Shown in pieces: positions 15,661 through 21,579 of a DNA stretch of 64,000 bases; positions within the stretch are counted from its first letter, which is position 1; each line of letters starts with the position of its first letter. Location: NCBI RefSeq assembly GCF_030691135.1, contig NZ_JAUYFA010000057.1, positions 1 to 64,000 on the forward strand, read 5' to 3'. The position numbers and the translations under genes are program-made. The notes under the pieces were generated by a model, which had not been told where the DNA came from, searched no databases, and saw only the letters and a list, made by a program, of their open reading frames with translations. This DNA comes from Phreatobacter sp. (GTDB lineage: Bacteria > Pseudomonadota > Alphaproteobacteria > Rhizobiales > Phreatobacteraceae).

Positions 15661-16371
15661 TCAGAGCGGCTCCCGCCGTGTCGGTCGGAGAGCCTCCCGG
15701 CCGATGACCCACAAGATCTTGGTGCCGGCCTTGATCGTCCCGCTCACCGTCCCGGAGACCTTGGAAACACCGATGCGGCGGCGATAGTCGACGGGAATCT
15801 CCCGTGTCCGCAGTCCCACGCGGGCCGCCTTGATCTGCATTTCCACCGTCCAGCCGTAGTTGAGGTCGGCCATGGCGAGACGCTGGAGCGCGGCGTGCGA
15901 GATCGCGCGGAACGGGCCGAGATCGGTGAAACTTCGCCCCCAGACGAGGCGCATCAACGAGCAGGCGAGCCAGTTGCCGAAGACCTGCTGCGGCGTCAGC
16001 GCCCCGGCTTCCCGCTGTCCCAGAACCCGCGATCCGAGCACCAGATCGGCCTCGCCGTCGATGATCGGCTGCACCAGGTGGGTCATTGCGGAGAGATCGT
16101 CGGCGGCGTCGCCGTCGACGAAGACGATAACGTCGACGGGGGGCAGCGCCGCGATGGCGGCGAGGCATGCCCGTCCGTAGCCGGGGCCCTCGACATTCAC
16201 GACGATGGCGCCAAGCCGCCGGCCGACGTCCTGCGTCCCATCCGTCGAGAGGTAGTCACCGATCACGACCGTGTCGACGAAAACGGGCATGGCGCCCAGC
16301 ACCGCCGGCAGTGCCTTCGCCTCGTTGCGGGTCGGGATGACGACGCCGATCCTCGATCCTGCGAGGCTCAT
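15661..16371 (-). CDS. Glycosyltransferase family 2, polyprenyl-phosphate-sugar synthase-like
   Basis: A 236-residue cytoplasmic or membrane-associated GT-A enzyme. It starts with VVIPTRNEAKALPAVL (nucleotide-sugar binding). The metal-binding acidic motif VFVDGDAADDL lies near residue 83, and the acceptor-site region DLGPFRAISHAALQRL near 150. It resembles bacterial dolichyl/undecaprenyl-phosphate mannose or glucose synthases, which supply a lipid-linked sugar to membrane glycosyltransferases. There is no C-terminal membrane anchor. Its start overlaps the stop of a DUF2029-type membrane glycosyltransferase, a logical consumer of its product. Confidence 0.9.
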   Translation of the reverse strand: MSLAGSRIGVVIPTRNEAKALPAVLGAMPVFVDTVVIGDYLSTDGTQDVGRRLGAIVVNVEGPGYGRACLAAIAALPPVDVIVFVDGDAADDLSAMTHLVQPIIDGEADLVLGSRVLGQREAGALTPQQVFGNWLACSLMRLVWGRSFTDLGPFRAISHAALQRLAMADLNYGWTVEMQIKAARVGLRTREIPVDYRRRIGVSKVSGTVSGTIKAGTKILWVIGREALRPTRREPL

Positions 16372-17801
16372 GCCGAGGCTCCCGATGTTGCCGACCGCCG
16401 TGCCAGCAAGGCGATGATGATGACCGGCGCGACATGCAGGGCGGCGAGCCCATAGCCGTGAAGGTCGCGCAGCCCTGCGGCTGCAAGAGGAAAAAAGAGG
16501 TAGTAGATCGGCAGGCCAACCGCCGCCGCCGACAGCGGCCAGGCACCACTCGCCGCCGCAAGCGGCAGGAACCAGACCGCATACCAGGGAAACTGCGCCG
16601 GGGAGAGGTAGAACAGGATCGCGGCGAGCAGGGCGGCGCGGCCGATCAGGCCCTGCAGTCCGGCAGGGCGGCGCACCGCCACCGAGAGACTGGCGATCGC
16701 TGCGGCCGATACCACCAGAACCCGAAGGACGACCTCACCCCAACCGGACCCGAAGACCCGAAAAAAGAGATAGGACGCCCAGGCGAAGGGGGCGTTGTTG
16801 ATGCTCCAGCCGCTGGCATAGGCCGTCAGGCCGGCATTCGCCGAGAGGCTGCTCCAGACCAGCGGGCCGCAAAGCAGCAGCATCGTTACTCCGAGCGCCA
16901 GCGCGAACAGCGCCAGGGCCCTCCGGTCGGGCCAGAGGGCGCGCGCGATCAGCGGCGCCAGGAGGATCGGCCAGAGCTTCACACCCACCGCGAAGCCGAC
17001 CACGAGCCCTGCAACCAGCCCGGCGCGCCGCTGGGCGGCGACCAGCGCCAGCAGGATCGGTGCGGCCAGCGCGGCATCTATATGGGCCTGCCCCGTCAGG
17101 CAGAAGGCCAGCAGCGGGTTGCACCAGTAGAGCGCCGTTGCAAGCGGGCTATGGCCCGACGAGAGCAGCAGCCGCCAGATCAGGACAGCCGTCAGGGCCT
17201 CGGACACGAAGATCACCACGCGCAGGCCGTCGAGGCTCCAGGGGGCGATGAGATGGGCGAGGGCGAAGAGCGCCTGAGCACCGCCCGGGTAGATCGAGCG
17301 CAAGGTGGGAAAGTTGATCGCGGTGATGGCCTGATGGCCGGCTGCGACCATGTCCGGCGGCAGGGCGCCGAGACCCTGAAGCACCTGTTCGGGGGAGATG
17401 GCATAGGGACTTGCGCCCTGAGCCACCGTGGCGCCGTCGAGAAGGTAACGGAAATGGTCGTCTTCCAGCAGGGGCCCGGCGCCGAAATAGGGCAGGCGCA
17501 TGAGCATGCCGGTTGCCGCGACGGCGACCACCAGGCGCCAATCCACGGCAAGGTTGCGCCCCGCCCAGACCGCAAAGGTGACCCCCGCGGTCGACAGCGC
17601 CAGCAGCAGGGCGAGGAGGGTCGCGGCCCACCACGCGTCACGCGTGGCGACCGCCGTATGCCCGAATGTCCAGGCCAGCGCGACCTGGGTCGCGACAGCC
17701 AGACCGAGTGCCGCGACCAGCGCCGTGGCGCGGCGCTCCGGCGACGGGTTGCGTAGCGCGGCAAGGGCGGTGCCCGTCGATGGGATACCCCGAGATGTCA
17801 T
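16368..17801 (-). CDS. Polytopic membrane glycosyltransferase (DUF2029/GT87-like)
   Basis: A 477-residue integral membrane protein with about eleven hydrophobic segments. Its first extracytoplasmic loop, around residues 105-150, contains LLEDDHFRYLLDGATVAQG; the acidic residues there resemble the catalytic Asp/Glu pair of GT-C polyprenyl-dependent mannosyltransferases. YWCNPLLAFCLTGQAHIDA near residue 230 fits the 'NP...GH.D' motif of this family. It likely transfers a sugar from a lipid carrier made by the overlapping GT2 gene product; the acceptor is unknown. Its start overlaps the rhodanese stop (ATGA). Confidence 0.85.
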   Translation of the reverse strand: MTSRGIPSTGTALAALRNPSPERRATALVAALGLAVATQVALAWTFGHTAVATRDAWWAATLLALLLALSTAGVTFAVWAGRNLAVDWRLVVAVAATGMLMRLPYFGAGPLLEDDHFRYLLDGATVAQGASPYAISPEQVLQGLGALPPDMVAAGHQAITAINFPTLRSIYPGGAQALFALAHLIAPWSLDGLRVVIFVSEALTAVLIWRLLLSSGHSPLATALYWCNPLLAFCLTGQAHIDAALAAPILLALVAAQRRAGLVAGLVVGFAVGVKLWPILLAPLIARALWPDRRALALFALALGVTMLLLCGPLVWSSLSANAGLTAYASGWSINNAPFAWASYLFFRVFGSGWGEVVLRVLVVSAAAIASLSVAVRRPAGLQGLIGRAALLAAILFYLSPAQFPWYAVWFLPLAAASGAWPLSAAAVGLPIYYLFFPLAAAGLRDLHGYGLAALHVAPVIIIALLARRSATSGASA

Positions 17802-18388
17802 GGGGCAGCTGTGGTCCTGGTCAGCAGGCGGCCCCAGTTCTCGTCGAAGGGATGTGCGCGCCCTGGTGCTGCCCGGCTCACCAGCGCGCGGCCTTCCGCC
17901 GTCCAGCGGAAGACGCCGCCACGCAGGTTGTACAGACCGGCCCGTGCGTGGGGCGCGATCTGCGAGAGGGTCCGCATCATCAGAACCGAGGAGCGGACGC
18001 CGACCGCGCAGTAGAAGATGACGGGACCGGCAGCTATCCGGTCACGGTGGAGCCTGAGGATCTCCTCGGCCGTACTGCCGGGCTCGATCCGGATGGCCCC
18101 CGGAAGGTGGCCGGTCTCGAATTCTTCCACGGTCCGGACGTCGAACAGCGTCACGGAGCCGCCTGGCAGTCCTGCCGCCAGGGTTGCGGGGGTCATCTCG
18201 GGGACGCGATAGCGGCGGACGACCTCGCGCTCGACATCCTCGAGGGAGACCCGCGGATCGGTCGGATCGAGCGTCCACGGCGCGAGATGCGGTGCGGTGT
18301 TCCACAGGAATGCGGCGGCTGCGGCGAGCAGGATTGCTCCGGTCACGGCACCGATCGCGAGTCTACGGGTCTTCGGGCGTACCGTCAT
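17798..18388 (-). CDS. Membrane-anchored rhodanese-like protein
   Basis: A 196-residue protein with one N-terminal membrane segment (residues 10-28, AIGAVTGAILLAAAAAFLW) and a rhodanese domain from about residue 60. The active-site loop is CAVGVR near residue 129, so the catalytic cysteine and the 'CxxGxR' phosphate-like cradle are present. VTLFDVRTVEEFETGHLPGA is the usual entry motif. The domain is probably periplasmic and would carry sulfane sulfur as a persulfide. The start MTVRPKTRRL avoids overlap with the DUF547 gene 22 bases upstream. Confidence 0.9.
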   Translation of the reverse strand: MTVRPKTRRLAIGAVTGAILLAAAAAFLWNTAPHLAPWTLDPTDPRVSLEDVEREVVRRYRVPEMTPATLAAGLPGGSVTLFDVRTVEEFETGHLPGAIRIEPGSTAEEILRLHRDRIAAGPVIFYCAVGVRSSVLMMRTLSQIAPHARAGLYNLRGGVFRWTAEGRALVSRAAPGRAHPFDENWGRLLTRTTAAP

Positions 18389-18410
18389 GCGGTGTCCAGA
18401 CGTCCTCGCG

Positions 18411-19241
18411 TCAGCTGCGCGGCCGGGTCGTTGCCGTGCGGTTGAGCGCCCAGTCATAGTCGTCCTCGGCGATCCTCGGCGATCCCGCCAATTGGCGCGC
18501 CAGAACCGGCTCGGCATAGGAGCGGAAGTGGGCGATCAGCCCGGCATCGTCGCCGCCGAAATCCTCGATGAACCACTTGTAGATCGATGATACCCGCAGG
18601 CCGCCTGACGGCAGCATGGCAACGCCGCGCGGATGGTTGACGAAGGCCCGCGCCGCCGCGTCCAGATCAGCCTCCAGCGTCGCCGCCCGCCAGACCCGGT
18701 TCATCAGGTTGGGGCAGCCGTTCGAAGCGCAATTGACGATGTAATGGACCCGCGGATCCTTGAAGGTGGGCCGCATGATCACATGTTCAATGTCGTCGAG
18801 GGAGAGCCTGCGGCCCTCGACCGTGACGCGCTGCTGGCGCCAGGGCCCGGTATAGGCCTTCGGATCGAGCCAGGAATCGCTCTTGATGTCGCGGATCGAG
18901 GCGACGGGATAGCGGTCGAGGATGACCTTGAGAGTCACGGCATTGTAGAGGTTGCCCCAGTAGGCCATGGCCTCGGCGCGTTGCATGGCCGAAGGCCGCC
19001 GCGCCGACAACTCGGCGAGATAGGCGTTGAGCGTCGCCATATCAGCGGCGCTGGCTCGCCATCCGGCATAGTCGACGCGGTTGATCCCGTCCGCGTCGAC
19101 GCTCACATATTTATTCAAGAGACTGTCATAACCAGCCTCTGGATCAGCGCTTTGGGCCGTAGCGGCGGTGGCAAAGAGGGCGACCGCAAGGCCGAGGGCC
19201 GAGCGCCGCGAGAGGGATCGCAGAGGAGCCAAAGGCATCAT
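18411..19241 (-). CDS. DUF547 family protein, exported
   Basis: A 276-residue protein with a probable signal peptide (SLSRRSALGLAVALFATAATAQ; twin arginines before the core) and a DUF547 domain over nearly the whole mature length. Family marks are AYWGNLYNAVTLKVIL near residue 98 and HYIVNCASNGCPNL near 160, with two conserved cysteines. The function of DUF547 is not established; the Cys/His-containing papain-like core suggests a thiol enzyme. The start at MMPLAPLRSL was chosen for the GGAGAAAA ribosome binding site ahead of it. It lies between TVP38 and rhodanese genes. Confidence 0.9.
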   Translation of the reverse strand: MMPLAPLRSLSRRSALGLAVALFATAATAQSADPEAGYDSLLNKYVSVDADGINRVDYAGWRASAADMATLNAYLAELSARRPSAMQRAEAMAYWGNLYNAVTLKVILDRYPVASIRDIKSDSWLDPKAYTGPWRQQRVTVEGRRLSLDDIEHVIMRPTFKDPRVHYIVNCASNGCPNLMNRVWRAATLEADLDAAARAFVNHPRGVAMLPSGGLRVSSIYKWFIEDFGGDDAGLIAHFRSYAEPVLARQLAGSPRIAEDDYDWALNRTATTRPRS

Positions 19242-19287
19242 GGTTTTCTCCAGACGACAGCGTCGAAGCGGATGAAGGTCGATGCGT

Positions 19288-20004
19288 TCAGCCACTGCGC
19301 GCCTCGAAACGCTTGCGCAGGGGAATGGCGGCGAGGGACAGGAGCGCGAGGCCGACTAGTCCCGCGATGATCTCCCGCGTCAGGATCGAGCCCGCCGTCA
19401 CCGTGCCGCCCTGGTCGAGGACCGAACCGAGGCCGGCGCCGGCCAGCGAGAAGACCGCCGTGCCCGGGATGATTCCGAAGAAGGTGGTGAGCACATAGGT
19501 GACGAGCGGCACGCTGACGAAGGCGGGCACGAGGTTGACCAGGAAGAAGGGAAACAGCGGCACCAGACGCAGCACGAGGAGATAGGAGCCGGCGTTGCGC
19601 CGGATTCCCTCGGCAAGGCGCGCGGCCGGGGCGCCGAAGCGGTCGAGGGCATTCTCGCCGAAGAGCGACTTGGCGAAGATGAAGATCAGCGTCGCGCCGA
19701 TGGTTGCGCCGGTCACCGTCAGCAGCGTGCCGAGCACCGCGCCGAACAGGAAGCCGCCCGAGAGCGTCAGGAAGACCGCCCCGGGAAACGAGAAGGCAAC
19801 GGCAACTACATAGACCGTGACATAGGCGAGGCTGGCGAGCACGATGTTGCTGCCGACCCAGGTGGTGAGCGTGCCCCTGTGGGTCTTCAGCGTGTCGAGC
19901 GACAGGACGTCGGTCAGACCGGACCAGCGGAGCAGGGCGAAGGCGCAGAGGGCTGCGAGGACCAGCCACAACCTGCGGTCCTTCAGAATGGTTGCGGAAG
20001 ACAT
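19288..20004 (-). CDS. TVP38/TMEM64 family membrane protein (SNARE-associated/VTT domain)
   Basis: A 238-residue inner-membrane protein with about five to six hydrophobic segments. The VTT-domain signature FPGAVFLTLSGGFLFG lies near residues 67-82, and TGATIGATLIFIFAKSLFG follows. The family (DedA superfamily) includes lipid scramblases and undecaprenyl-phosphate flippases. In the same operon as a lipid-linked-sugar synthase and a GT-C enzyme, lipid-carrier recycling is a reasonable guess. A GGAGAAAC ribosome binding site supports the start MSSATILKDRR. Confidence 0.9.
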   Translation of the reverse strand: MSSATILKDRRLWLVLAALCAFALLRWSGLTDVLSLDTLKTHRGTLTTWVGSNIVLASLAYVTVYVVAVAFSFPGAVFLTLSGGFLFGAVLGTLLTVTGATIGATLIFIFAKSLFGENALDRFGAPAARLAEGIRRNAGSYLLVLRLVPLFPFFLVNLVPAFVSVPLVTYVLTTFFGIIPGTAVFSLAGAGLGSVLDQGGTVTAGSILTREIIAGLVGLALLSLAAIPLRKRFEARSG

Positions 20005-20015
20005 CGGTTTCTCCG

Positions 20016-21503
20016 TCACGGGAGGATGCGCTGAACGAAGCCGACGATCCTTCGGGTCAGAGGCCCGAAGAGCTTCGGCGTGTAATAGCTTCCGGCCGCC
20101 CGTTTCGAGATCTCCGACAGCGTCGGATAGGGCATCACGGCGCTTGCGACGGCGCCGATCTTCAGGCCTGCCGAAATGGCGAGGCCCCATGTGCCGATCA
20201 GTTCGCCCGCGCGGGGGCCGACGATGGTCGCCCCGAGGATGCGGCCCTTGCGGCCGAGAACGATCTTGGCAAGCCCTTCGGTCGCGCGCTCGGCCTGGGC
20301 GCGGTCATTGCCGTCGAATGACCAGGTCAGCACCTGGACCTCGTGGCCGGCCTTGCGCGCATCGGCTTCGGTCAGGCCGGCATGAGCCAGTTCCGGATCG
20401 GTATAGGTCACCCAGGGCAAGGCGGCATAGTTGACCTTGGCCGGCAGCCCGAACAGCGCGTTGCGGATGACGATACCTGCGTGATAGCCGGCTATGTGGG
20501 TGAACTGCGGGCCGCCCGAGACGTCGCCGATGGCGAAGACCTTGCGGTTGCTCGTCCGCAGGCGAGCGTCGACGGTGATGCCTTTCGGCGTCGTTTCAAC
20601 ACCGGCCGCGTCTAGGCCGAGTCCTTCTACGTTGGGCCGCCGGCCGGCGGCGACGAGGATATGGCTGCCGCTGACGCTGCGGCCGGTCTCGCCGTCACCG
20701 TCGAGCGTCACGGTCACGAGCCCGTCGTGGCGCGACACCTTCCCGACGCCGGTACGCTCGAGCAGCGTCACCCCGTCCCGAACGAGCGCGGCACGCACGA
20801 CATCGACGGCCTCTGGCTCGTCCCTCGACAGGATGCCGAATTTTTCGATCACGGTGACCTGTGATCCGAGCCGGCGGAAAGCCTGTGCCATCTCGATGCC
20901 GATCGGTCCCCCGCCGAGGACGATGAGGTGGTCCGGTCGTTCCGTCAGTTCGAAGATGCTCTCGTTGGTGAGGAAACCGGACTCGGCCAGGCCCGGAATC
21001 GGCGGGACTGCGGCGCGCGAGCCGCTGGCGACCACGAAGCGCCGGGCCATGACCTTTTCGCCTCCGGCCTCCACCGTTTCGCGATCGATGAAACGCCCGA
21101 CGGCCTGGATCACATGGACGCCGAGCCCCTGGAAGCGCTCGACGCTGTCATGCGGCGCGATGGCACCGATGACGCCGTGGACATGGGCGTGCACCTCGTC
21201 AAAACGGATTTCGGGGGCGGCCGTATGGACGCCGAAACGGCTGCCGTCACGGACGGCGTGCGCCGCATGGGCCGCGGCGATCAAGGCCTTGGAGGGCACG
21301 CAGCCCGTGTTGAGGCAGTCGCCGCCCATTGCGCCCTTTTCGATGAGGACGACGGAGGCACCCATCTGTACCGCGCCTGCGGCGACCGACAACCCGCCTG
21401 AGCCTGCACCGATGACGCAGAGATCGGCATGCAGAACGCCGTTTCTGCGCTCCGGGAGCTTGGGGGGGAGCAAGGATGGTGTCGGGCTGGCCAAGGATAT
21501 CAC
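20016..21503 (-). CDS. FAD-dependent pyridine nucleotide-disulfide oxidoreductase (MerA/Lpd-like)
   Basis: A 495-residue flavoenzyme. The FAD-binding motif is LCVIGAGSGGLSVAAGA near residue 30, and the redox disulfide GDCLNTGCVPSK near 60-71. The NAD(P)H motif LIVLGGGPIGIEMAQAF is near 195 and the C-terminal dimerisation domain starts about 370. It has no N-terminal heavy-metal-binding domain and ends in RIVGFVQRILP without the C-terminal cysteine pair, so it is not a mercuric reductase. This subclass is regularly linked to TVP38 genes, though its substrate is unknown; a disulfide or persulfide is a candidate. It is first in the six-gene operon; the TVP38 start follows its stop by 11 bases. 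Confidence 0.92.
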   Translation of the reverse strand: MISLASPTPSLLPPKLPERRNGVLHADLCVIGAGSGGLSVAAGAVQMGASVVLIEKGAMGGDCLNTGCVPSKALIAAAHAAHAVRDGSRFGVHTAAPEIRFDEVHAHVHGVIGAIAPHDSVERFQGLGVHVIQAVGRFIDRETVEAGGEKVMARRFVVASGSRAAVPPIPGLAESGFLTNESIFELTERPDHLIVLGGGPIGIEMAQAFRRLGSQVTVIEKFGILSRDEPEAVDVVRAALVRDGVTLLERTGVGKVSRHDGLVTVTLDGDGETGRSVSGSHILVAAGRRPNVEGLGLDAAGVETTPKGITVDARLRTSNRKVFAIGDVSGGPQFTHIAGYHAGIVIRNALFGLPAKVNYAALPWVTYTDPELAHAGLTEADARKAGHEVQVLTWSFDGNDRAQAERATEGLAKIVLGRKGRILGATIVGPRAGELIGTWGLAISAGLKIGAVASAVMPYPTLSEISKRAAGSYYTPKLFGPLTRRIVGFVQRILP

Positions 21504-21561
21504 TTTCGGAAGGGTGTGCGTTCGATCAACTCTACGGCGCCCTGTCCGGCGGCGTTACAGG

Positions 21562-21579
21562 ACTCACGCTTTCGTGAGT
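21562..21579. promoter_or_regulatory. Inverted repeat in the control region of the FAD oxidoreductase operon
   Basis: A perfect 7-base inverted repeat (ACTCACG-CTTT-CGTGAGT) lies 59 bases upstream of the flavoenzyme start and 50 bases past the iclR stop. No T-run follows, so an operator is about as likely as a terminator for iclR. Confidence 0.35.

Follow-up and report, generated by a model that had tools for sequence, protein, structure and literature searches.

The DNA analyzed here, called the window, is a stretch of 64,000 nucleotides (nt) from a Phreatobacter sp. genome (contig NZ_JAUYFA010000057.1, positions 1 to 64,000), and our subject is a set of six minus-strand genes spanning positions 15661-21503. 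The original prediction, made from the letters of the sequence, placed six protein families here and proposed that lipid-linked sugar handling is combined with thiol/persulfide chemistry. All six families are present with their Pfam domains over gathering scores, and two glycosyltransferases (GT2 and GT87) do lie beside MerA-like and rhodanese proteins, as that proposal held. Lengths below are in amino acids (aa), and model confidence is the predicted local distance difference test (pLDDT).

21553..21578, minus strand: upstream composite motif (imperfectly conserved palindrome plus TGTAACG), preceding the MerA-like gene
20016..21503, minus strand: MerA-like FAD/NAD(P) disulfide oxidoreductase, 495 aa, GTG start; PF07992 and PF02852 above gathering score
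19288..20004, minus strand: TVP38/TMEM64-type VTT (DedA superfamily) membrane protein, 238 aa; PF09335, six hydrophobic segments
18411..19241, minus strand: DUF547 protein, probably exported, 276 aa, motif NCAS-x-GCP (Cys171, Cys176); PF04784, model of pLDDT 90.3
17798..18388, minus strand: single-domain rhodanese, membrane-anchored or exported, 196 aa, loop CAVGVRSS; PF00581, N-terminal hydrophobic segment
16368..17801, minus strand: glycosyltransferase (GT87) with a predicted GT-C fold, 477 aa; PF09594, structure model matches
15661..16371, minus strand: GT-A fold GT2, polyprenyl-phosphate sugar synthase-like, 236 aa; PF00535, best match AglJ (TIGR04182)

With starts refined against the longest open reading frames (ORFs) to 20004 for TVP38, 19241 for DUF547 and 18388 for the rhodanese, the gaps are 11 nt between MerA and TVP38, 46 nt between TVP38 and DUF547 and 22 nt between DUF547 and the rhodanese. 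ATGA overlaps are found at both the rhodanese/GT87 and GT87/GT2 junctions, in agreement with the expectation that several of the genes overlap. Separate internal promoters had been named as a sign against a single unit; a search for sigma-70-like promoters within the six-gene set found none. The 7.6-kb region holds five terminator-like sites compared with 2.7 (standard deviation 1.6) in shuffled sequence, and two of the five fall in TVP38 and GT2, on the coding strand of the set. From the spacing we infer that the six genes form one operon. Its base composition resembles the remainder of the window, and repeats near the operon and the transfer RNAs of the window were uninformative.

The MerA-like protein scores 192.5 against PF07992 (gathering score 26.1) and 99.7 against PF02852 (25.3), and keeps the redox pair CLNTGC at positions 63 and 68. 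In mercuric reductase MerA, a C-terminal Cys pair serves Hg(II). The window protein has no such pair, as its only further Cys is at position 29, and it reaches 395.7 bits against the MerA equivalog TIGR02053, below the cut-off of 454.45. Identity as a mercuric reductase is unsupported on these two grounds, and the earlier description of a MerA-like protein without metal motifs stands. The TVP38 protein carries the DedA/VTT domain (PF09335, 67.8; gathering score 33.9). A DedA survey (PMC10127716) places TMEM64-like proteins in COG0398 and gives the fusion of TVP38 with a MerA-type domain as the commonest fusion of its DedA subfamily. The adjacency of the two genes in the window resembles these fusions, and a single ORF joins them in an Erythrobacteraceae locus described below; the window genes differ in being separate and in being tied to a glycosyltransferase module. 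A role for TVP38 as an undecaprenyl-phosphate flippase was considered and set aside, because the same survey speaks against it for this subfamily.

The DUF547 protein scores 80.3 against PF04784 (gathering score 27), and its Cys171 and Cys176 are conserved in at least 90% of 33 aligned sequences. Its structure model is confident (pLDDT 90.3). A Foldseek search of this model against the PDB returned no match at E ≤ 0.001 and VIA-align a best Z of 3.1, which does not in itself show a new fold; the best match of the sequence to the PDB had an E of only 0.73. In the open literature, we found no paper with DUF547 in its title or abstract. Given this and the lack of a PDB match for a confident model, a genomic context for DUF547 is useful. 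The rhodanese scores 50.9 against PF00581 (gathering score 22.2) and has the catalytic loop FYCAVGVRSS; Cys127 is its only Cys, and the loop Cys is invariant in 11 aligned sequences. With its N-terminal hydrophobic segment, it is the membrane rhodanese with an intact CAVGVR loop that had been predicted. Since DUF547 has a signal-like start and the rhodanese a hydrophobic N-terminus, both are probably located outside the cytoplasm, judging from sequence. The best NCBIfam match of the rhodanese is NF045521, named rhoda_near_glyco, and the same is true of all eight order relatives tested. The window protein (54.1 bits) and these eight nonetheless differ from that family in falling under its cut-off of 145, which a Bacteroidota rhodanese (L092) passes as a full member at 194 bits.

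The GT87 protein scores 26.7 against PF09594 (gathering score 25). A model built from a 45-sequence alignment (pLDDT 90.2) matches ALG3 (Z 22.0, root-mean-square deviation 3.7, 346 residues aligned), PIG-M (21.0), PIG-U (19-20), PimE (17.0), ALG6 (16.8) and ArnT (16.7). The top 38 structure rows, from Z 22.0 to 7.7, are all GT-C enzymes, PIG-U, oligosaccharyltransferases or complexes containing one, and the fold was also recovered by Foldseek; by sequence profile the only PDB match is PimE (E 0.064). By its model the window GT87 has a GT-C fold, and transfer activity is predicted. Most of these GT-C enzymes use polyprenyl- or dolichyl-phosphate sugars. The GT2 protein (PF00535, 39.2; gathering score 23.3) has AglJ as its best NCBIfam match, at 111.5 bits over 220 residues and under the cut-off of 325. 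Its best PDB profile matches are glucosyl-3-phosphoglycerate synthases (E 9e-15), and the match to dolichol monophosphate mannose synthase (E 7e-12) covers a larger share of the protein. D86, D88 and D91 are invariant in 18 aligned sequences, and the protein is a putative polyprenyl-phosphate sugar synthase-like enzyme. Known pairs of a polyprenyl-phosphate-sugar synthase and a GT-C enzyme include ArnC/ArnT, RgtE/RgtA and DPM1/PIG-M. The window resembles these in that a GT-A GT2 adjoins a GT-C membrane transferase whose model matches PIG-M, PimE, ALG3 and ArnT. It differs in that GT87 is 12-16% identical to the top solved structures and in that the pair is linked to rhodanese, DUF547 and TIGR04282.

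Conservation was followed in 12 Phreatobacter genomes, in a wider first set of 61 genomes of the genus and order, and in an order-wide set of 397 genomes. Genomes are denoted by G numbers, G000 being the genome of the window and C84 one of its contigs, and compared loci by L numbers. GT87 occurs in 17 of the 61 genomes, and GT2 adjoins it in 17/17 matches outside the window's own genome. With the window this gives 18 loci, 11 of which have a member of the rhodanese family and 5 a DUF547 gene. Outside the genus, all eight loci of the order that have a rhodanese carry it on the opposite strand; three named loci (L039, L043, L044) have it on the same strand. All six genes are contiguous in three of the 12 genus genomes (G000, G002, G009) and, beyond the genus, only in a Methylobacterium metagenome-assembled genome (MAG; L043), so that joint conservation outside close relatives, in the neighborhood survey, held by half. 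MerA-TVP38 occurs at loci without the other four genes in G001, G007, G005 and G010. The six genes fall into two modules, MerA-TVP38 and DUF547-rhodanese-GT87-GT2, each of which appears to belong with a second locus elsewhere in G000. Of the earlier idea of one operon without a known function, the operon is upheld, and we likewise found no assigned function; the idea of a closed unit is not upheld. The IclR gene flanking the operon had no match in G001 or G007 at E ≤ 1e-60, so the corresponding empty site there was not located. Membership of the downstream liv-type ATP-binding cassette (ABC) operon in the system was rejected, as it follows the operon in L020 and not in L021.

The second locus became apparent from L043, where a radical S-adenosylmethionine (SAM) gene, a TIGR04283-like gene, MerA, TVP38, DUF547, rhodanese, GT87, GT2, TIGR04282 and TIGR03169 lie within ~12.3 kb. 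The radical SAM and TIGR04283-like genes stand upstream of the six, and TIGR04282 (136.5 bits, cut-off 134) and the TIGR03169 flavoprotein (416 bits, cut-off 310) follow them. Contig C84 of G000 carries counterparts, 54-69% identical, of exactly those four L043 genes that the window lacks:

C84 176781-177935: TIGR03169 flavoprotein, 393.5 bits (cut-off 310)
C84 177892-178686: TIGR04282-like protein (CofC/DUF2064 type), 132.9 bits; DUF2064 Pfam score 68.3 against 25.8
C84 178891-179856: radical SAM protein, unclassified, 69% identical to the L043 radical SAM protein
C84 179853-180530: TIGR04283-like protein, 124.5 bits against a cut-off of 182

In G007 and G001, MerA-TVP38-TIGR04282-TIGR03169 form one row, divergent from radical SAM-TIGR04283, and searches of these two genomes for GT87 and DUF547 found neither. 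G005 and G010 have MerA-TVP38-TIGR03169 only, and a contig end truncates the second locus of G009. The five genomes of the 12 with TIGR04282 include all three that have the six genes (hypergeometric 0.045). On the simplest reading, the DUF547-rhodanese-GT87-GT2 module joined an ancestral cluster, giving the arrangement of L043, and the cluster was later split in G000, G002 and G009. L114 (Erythrobacteraceae E2-1) holds relatives of nine of the ten L043 families, without TIGR03169, together with an ArsM-like gene. Within L114:8669-12906, GT87 and GT2 are a single ORF (702 aa), followed by TVP38 and MerA as another (713 aa). After the radical SAM/TIGR04283 locus of C84 lies a gene for a VirD4/TraG-like coupling protein (L194:11806-13104), a hint of mobile or rearranged DNA near the split.

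To survey other phyla, a named-locus scan with the GT2 profile yielded 80 loci from many phyla, the top ones of at least 595 candidate stretches. With the earlier loci added, and with duplicates (L037, L045, L100) and L108, a close relative near L033, removed, the resulting set has 94 loci, 76 chosen by GT2 alone and 18, including the window, by GT87. GT87-like genes are present at 67 of the 94 loci (not counting the fused GT87 of L114), rhodanese and DUF547 at 33 each, TIGR04282 at 28 (nine of these 28 members were run against NCBIfam, and 9/9 are over cut-off), a NapH-like membrane iron-sulfur protein at 24 and a CoA-disulfide-reductase-like flavoprotein at 22. At the 76 loci chosen by GT2 alone, the counts are GT87 49, rhodanese 22, DUF547 28 and TIGR04282 28. 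Gene fusions link the same families. One ORF in L050 combines a window-type GT2 with a TIGR04282-type (DUF2064) domain, L047 and L048 each have one ORF made of GT2, DUF2064 and a second GT2, both beside ArsS, and L058 has a TIGR04283-TIGR04282 fusion with both parts over cut-off.

The sole contrast to these counts, in place of matched random loci, is a set of 20 TIGR04282-centered loci of 3 to 16 kb each (L225-L244), one locus per genome and 18 of them from GT87-positive genomes. TIGR04283 is paired with TIGR04282 there; a radical SAM gene adjoins the pair at 12 of the loci, rnhB at 13 and a DNA methylase gene at 9. Rhodanese, DUF547 and GT87 occur at none of the 20, and there was no ArsS match. 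Across the 397 order genomes, GT87 was found in 53 and TIGR04282 in 115. TIGR04282 is present in 50/53 GT87-positive genomes against 65/344 without GT87 (Fisher 1.3e-27, a value that ignores kinship); counted by hand by genus, the figures are 32/32 against 33/109. TIGR04282 is missing from three GT87-positive genomes (G069, G118, G218). Among the 53 GT87 matches, 11 are weak (103-133 bits), and in 9/11 of these GT87 adjoins TIGR04282, with GT2 at all nine. In the nine fetched loci of this weaker subgroup (L185-L193), all with TIGR04282 and GT2 adjoining, L185-L188 and L190 have a Cys/Met pyridoxal phosphate enzyme and an epimerase, L189 and L191-L193 have a radical SAM gene instead, and a nucleoside phosphorylase-like gene occurs in L189 and L191.

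The two loci also share an upstream motif, composed of CWCAYGAA, KKG and then YGTAACG. In the 12 genus genomes, its short-spaced form is found only ahead of the window operon (G000, G002, G009); its long-spaced form precedes the radical SAM gene of G000 and of G007 and occurs nowhere else. Reversed control patterns gave no match. In 5.66 Mb of locus sequence searched on both strands, 7/7 matches, one of them a duplicate, fall at these promoters, L043 included. A perfect, operator-like 7-bp inverted repeat (ACTCACG/CGTGAGT, 21562-21579) lies ~60 nt upstream of the MerA-like gene; it is imperfect in two genus relatives, and the exact palindrome of the window was found in 0 of 244 other loci.

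The original prediction stated that related sets are known near arsenosugar genes and that no arsM/arsS-type gene is present. Both statements agree with our searches. Within the 94 loci, the ArsS cluster is present at 12, TIGR04169 at 11 and ArsM-like genes at 7, with any of the three at 18, and the ArsS-bearing loci, judged by record title, span five phyla. These three counts are of BLAST clusters; in NCBIfam checks, ArsS of L081 and TIGR04169 of L051 are over cut-off, and the four ArsM-like proteins checked are all below. Alongside its triple fusion, L047 holds ArsS, a TIGR04169-cluster gene, DUF547, GT87, and aquaporin-family and ArsM-like genes. In Alphaproteobacteria, ArsM-like neighbors occur in L032, L039, L052 and L114, and the ArsM-like proteins keep Cys53, Cys148 and Cys198 in 7/7 aligned sequences, which we take to be the counterparts of the catalytic Cys of ArsM. 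In whole-genome searches for ArsS and ArsM, with TIGR04169 outside their scope, the best ArsS (TIGR04167) score in the window's own genome was 63.6 against a cut-off of 300, and ArsM (NF008823) had no match at E ≤ 1e-15 in G000, G002 or G009. Membership in an arsenosugar cluster by virtue of ArsS or ArsM was rejected for this genome, as neither was found at the thresholds used.

The radical SAM protein of C84 belongs to no curated family by cut-off, scoring higher against Rv1681 (85.6) than against ArsS (63.6) and far below both cut-offs. Its profile nevertheless aligns with ArsS in hhalign (99.1%, E 1.3e-18) over the N-terminal 197 columns only, and its C-terminal Cys cluster is ArsS-like by eye. 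Compared with ArsS-type arsenosugar neighborhoods (TIGR04167, TIGR04169, TIGR04282, TIGR04283), the window genome shares TIGR04282-like, TIGR04283-like and radical SAM genes, and in L047 and L048, both with ArsS nearby, the triple fusion places a window-type GT2 in one ORF with a TIGR04282-type domain and another GT2. It differs in the two halves being on different contigs and, for the genes searched, in ArsS and ArsM not having been found. TIGR04282 passes its cut-off in 105 of the 397 order genomes and ArsS in one (G289, which has no GT87 match); for this reason, NCBI names of the type "arsenosugar biosynthesis glycosyltransferase" look over-broad, as the data suggest.

Taken together, we favor, at a probability of about 0.55, a reading in which the six genes encode the membrane and periplasmic arm of a modular lipid-linked sugar pathway of the arsenosugar type, with its cytosolic arm at C84 and a different radical SAM head. 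The anatomy, fusions, clustering, co-occurrence and second locus are observed, while substrates and activities are predictions. We reach this reading because L043 joins all ten genes, C84 holds the other four, and G007 and G001 join MerA-TVP38 to those four. L114 adds relatives of nine of the ten families beside an ArsM-like gene. The GT2-TIGR04282 fusions, TIGR04282 at 28/76 GT2 loci and the 50/53 versus 65/344 co-occurrence argue in the same direction, as do the GT-C fold, the shared upstream motif and the contrast loci devoid of rhodanese, DUF547 and GT87. ArsS is reported to adenosylate arsenic (PMC12159101); by analogy with ArsS, the radical SAM enzyme would make a modified nucleoside or sugar. 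The TIGR04282-like protein, perhaps with the TIGR04283-like protein, may then activate the sugar as a nucleotide-sugar. From its family and the fusions, GT2 would load the sugar onto polyprenyl phosphate, and the GT-C enzyme would pass it to some acceptor at the periplasmic face. TVP38 might scramble or move a lipid, and the MerA-like enzyme and TIGR03169 might supply thiol/disulfide redox. More speculatively, the exported rhodanese and DUF547, each with conserved Cys, could act on the product or acceptor outside the cell, for instance by sulfur transfer.

Several observations weigh against this reading. In the same G000, the TIGR04282-like protein falls just under its cut-off (132.9 against 134), and the TIGR04283-like protein (124.5 against 182) covers model positions 52-207 only. 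No nucleoside phosphorylase was found among the 8 + 6 proteins scanned at the two loci. In the 39 strong-GT87 genomes with TIGR04282, the two genes are never within 20 kb on one contig, and as TIGR04282 often sits in a context that looks housekeeping-like and inherited, its co-occurrence with GT87 may partly reflect shared ancestry. The long-spaced motif is unmatched at the radical SAM gene of G002 and G001, and its uniqueness is informative and no independent test, since the pattern was written after the sites had been seen. A separate GT87 is absent at 27/94 loci, some of them cut by contig ends, and 5 of 10 further strong GT87 loci have no adjacent window-type GT2. The DedA survey also argues that COG0398 (TMEM64-like) proteins are unlikely undecaprenyl-phosphate flippases (PMC10127716).

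Some of the same evidence can be read as pointing to arsenic itself, with the set finishing or exporting an arsenosugar or arsenolipid and the C84 radical SAM protein standing in for ArsS. This is a special case of the favored reading, so the odds of the two overlap. The ArsS, TIGR04169 and ArsM-like neighbors across five phyla (for ArsS), the gene content of L047, the Cys triad of the ArsM-like proteins and the resemblance of the C84 radical SAM protein to ArsS would all fit. However, ArsS is over cut-off in 0/53 GT87-positive order genomes, the six-gene genomes gave no ArsM match at E ≤ 1e-15, and the radical SAM protein scores higher for Rv1681; we regard a dedicated arsenic function as doubtful. 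Ordinary envelope glycosylation of lipid A, a hopanoid or a protein, with the redox genes as passengers and no radical SAM or metalloid link, would account for a GT87-GT2 pair that stays adjacent in all 17 matches outside G000 in the 61-genome set while its other partners vary, and for TIGR04282 being unlinked to GT87 in strong-GT87 genomes. GT-C relatives carry out envelope glycosylation. MerA-TVP38 occurs at loci without the glycosyltransferases, and a fusion of these domain types is the commonest in its DedA subfamily (PMC10127716). Against this explanation stand the repeated linkage to, and fusion with, TIGR04282-type proteins and the presence of rhodanese at 22 and DUF547 at 28 of the 76 GT2-only loci, and we hold it to be somewhat unlikely. 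That the genes came together by chance or local assembly without shared function could be argued from the exact six-gene order, seen only in 3/12 Phreatobacter genomes and one Methylobacterium MAG, but the genes are tightly spaced, with start/stop overlaps at two junctions, the order recurs in another genus (L043), and the same families are regrouped in other orders and phyla, which makes this very improbable.

A broader form of the favored pathway, which we put forward as a rather unlikely conjecture, is a general bacterial route not tied to arsenic. Exchangeable radical SAM enzymes would produce unusual sugars, each its own 5'-modified ribose or something similar. The steps after that would stay constant, with nucleotidyl activation by TIGR04282, polyprenyl loading by GT2 and transfer by the GT-C enzyme to an acceptor in a lipid or the envelope, and the exported rhodanese and DUF547 would modify the sugar there. 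As part of this conjecture, the heads would be ArsS, the unclassified radical SAM protein of Phreatobacter, Methylobacterium and Erythrobacteraceae, and a third, radical SAM/SPASM type beside GT87-GT2-TIGR04282 in L189, L191, L192 and L193, of which L189 is the one checked by Pfam. If this were true, "arsenosugar" would be one special case. In the open literature, including passages of PMC12159101, PMC8787705 and PMC13077682, we found no account of how an ArsS product becomes a lipid-linked arsenosugar; the main ArsS papers lay outside this search, and absence from print is unproven. A search for combinations of DUF547, TVP38, rhodanese and arsenosugar likewise found none. The fusions and clusters nominate a route that runs from TIGR04282 through a polyprenyl-phosphate GT2 to a GT-C transferase, accompanied by the exported rhodanese and DUF547. 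For the downstream half of arsenosugar-type pathways, still unexplained, this route offers steps that can be tested.

Three Hyphomicrobium/Methylocystis-type loci (L032, L039, L052) have GT87-GT2 beside genes for an extracytoplasmic function (ECF) sigma factor, an ArsM-like methyltransferase and a Pst-like ABC transporter, with families assigned by profile in L052 and the clusters carried to L032 and L039 by BLAST. These loci are possibly an arsenate/phosphate-responsive island.

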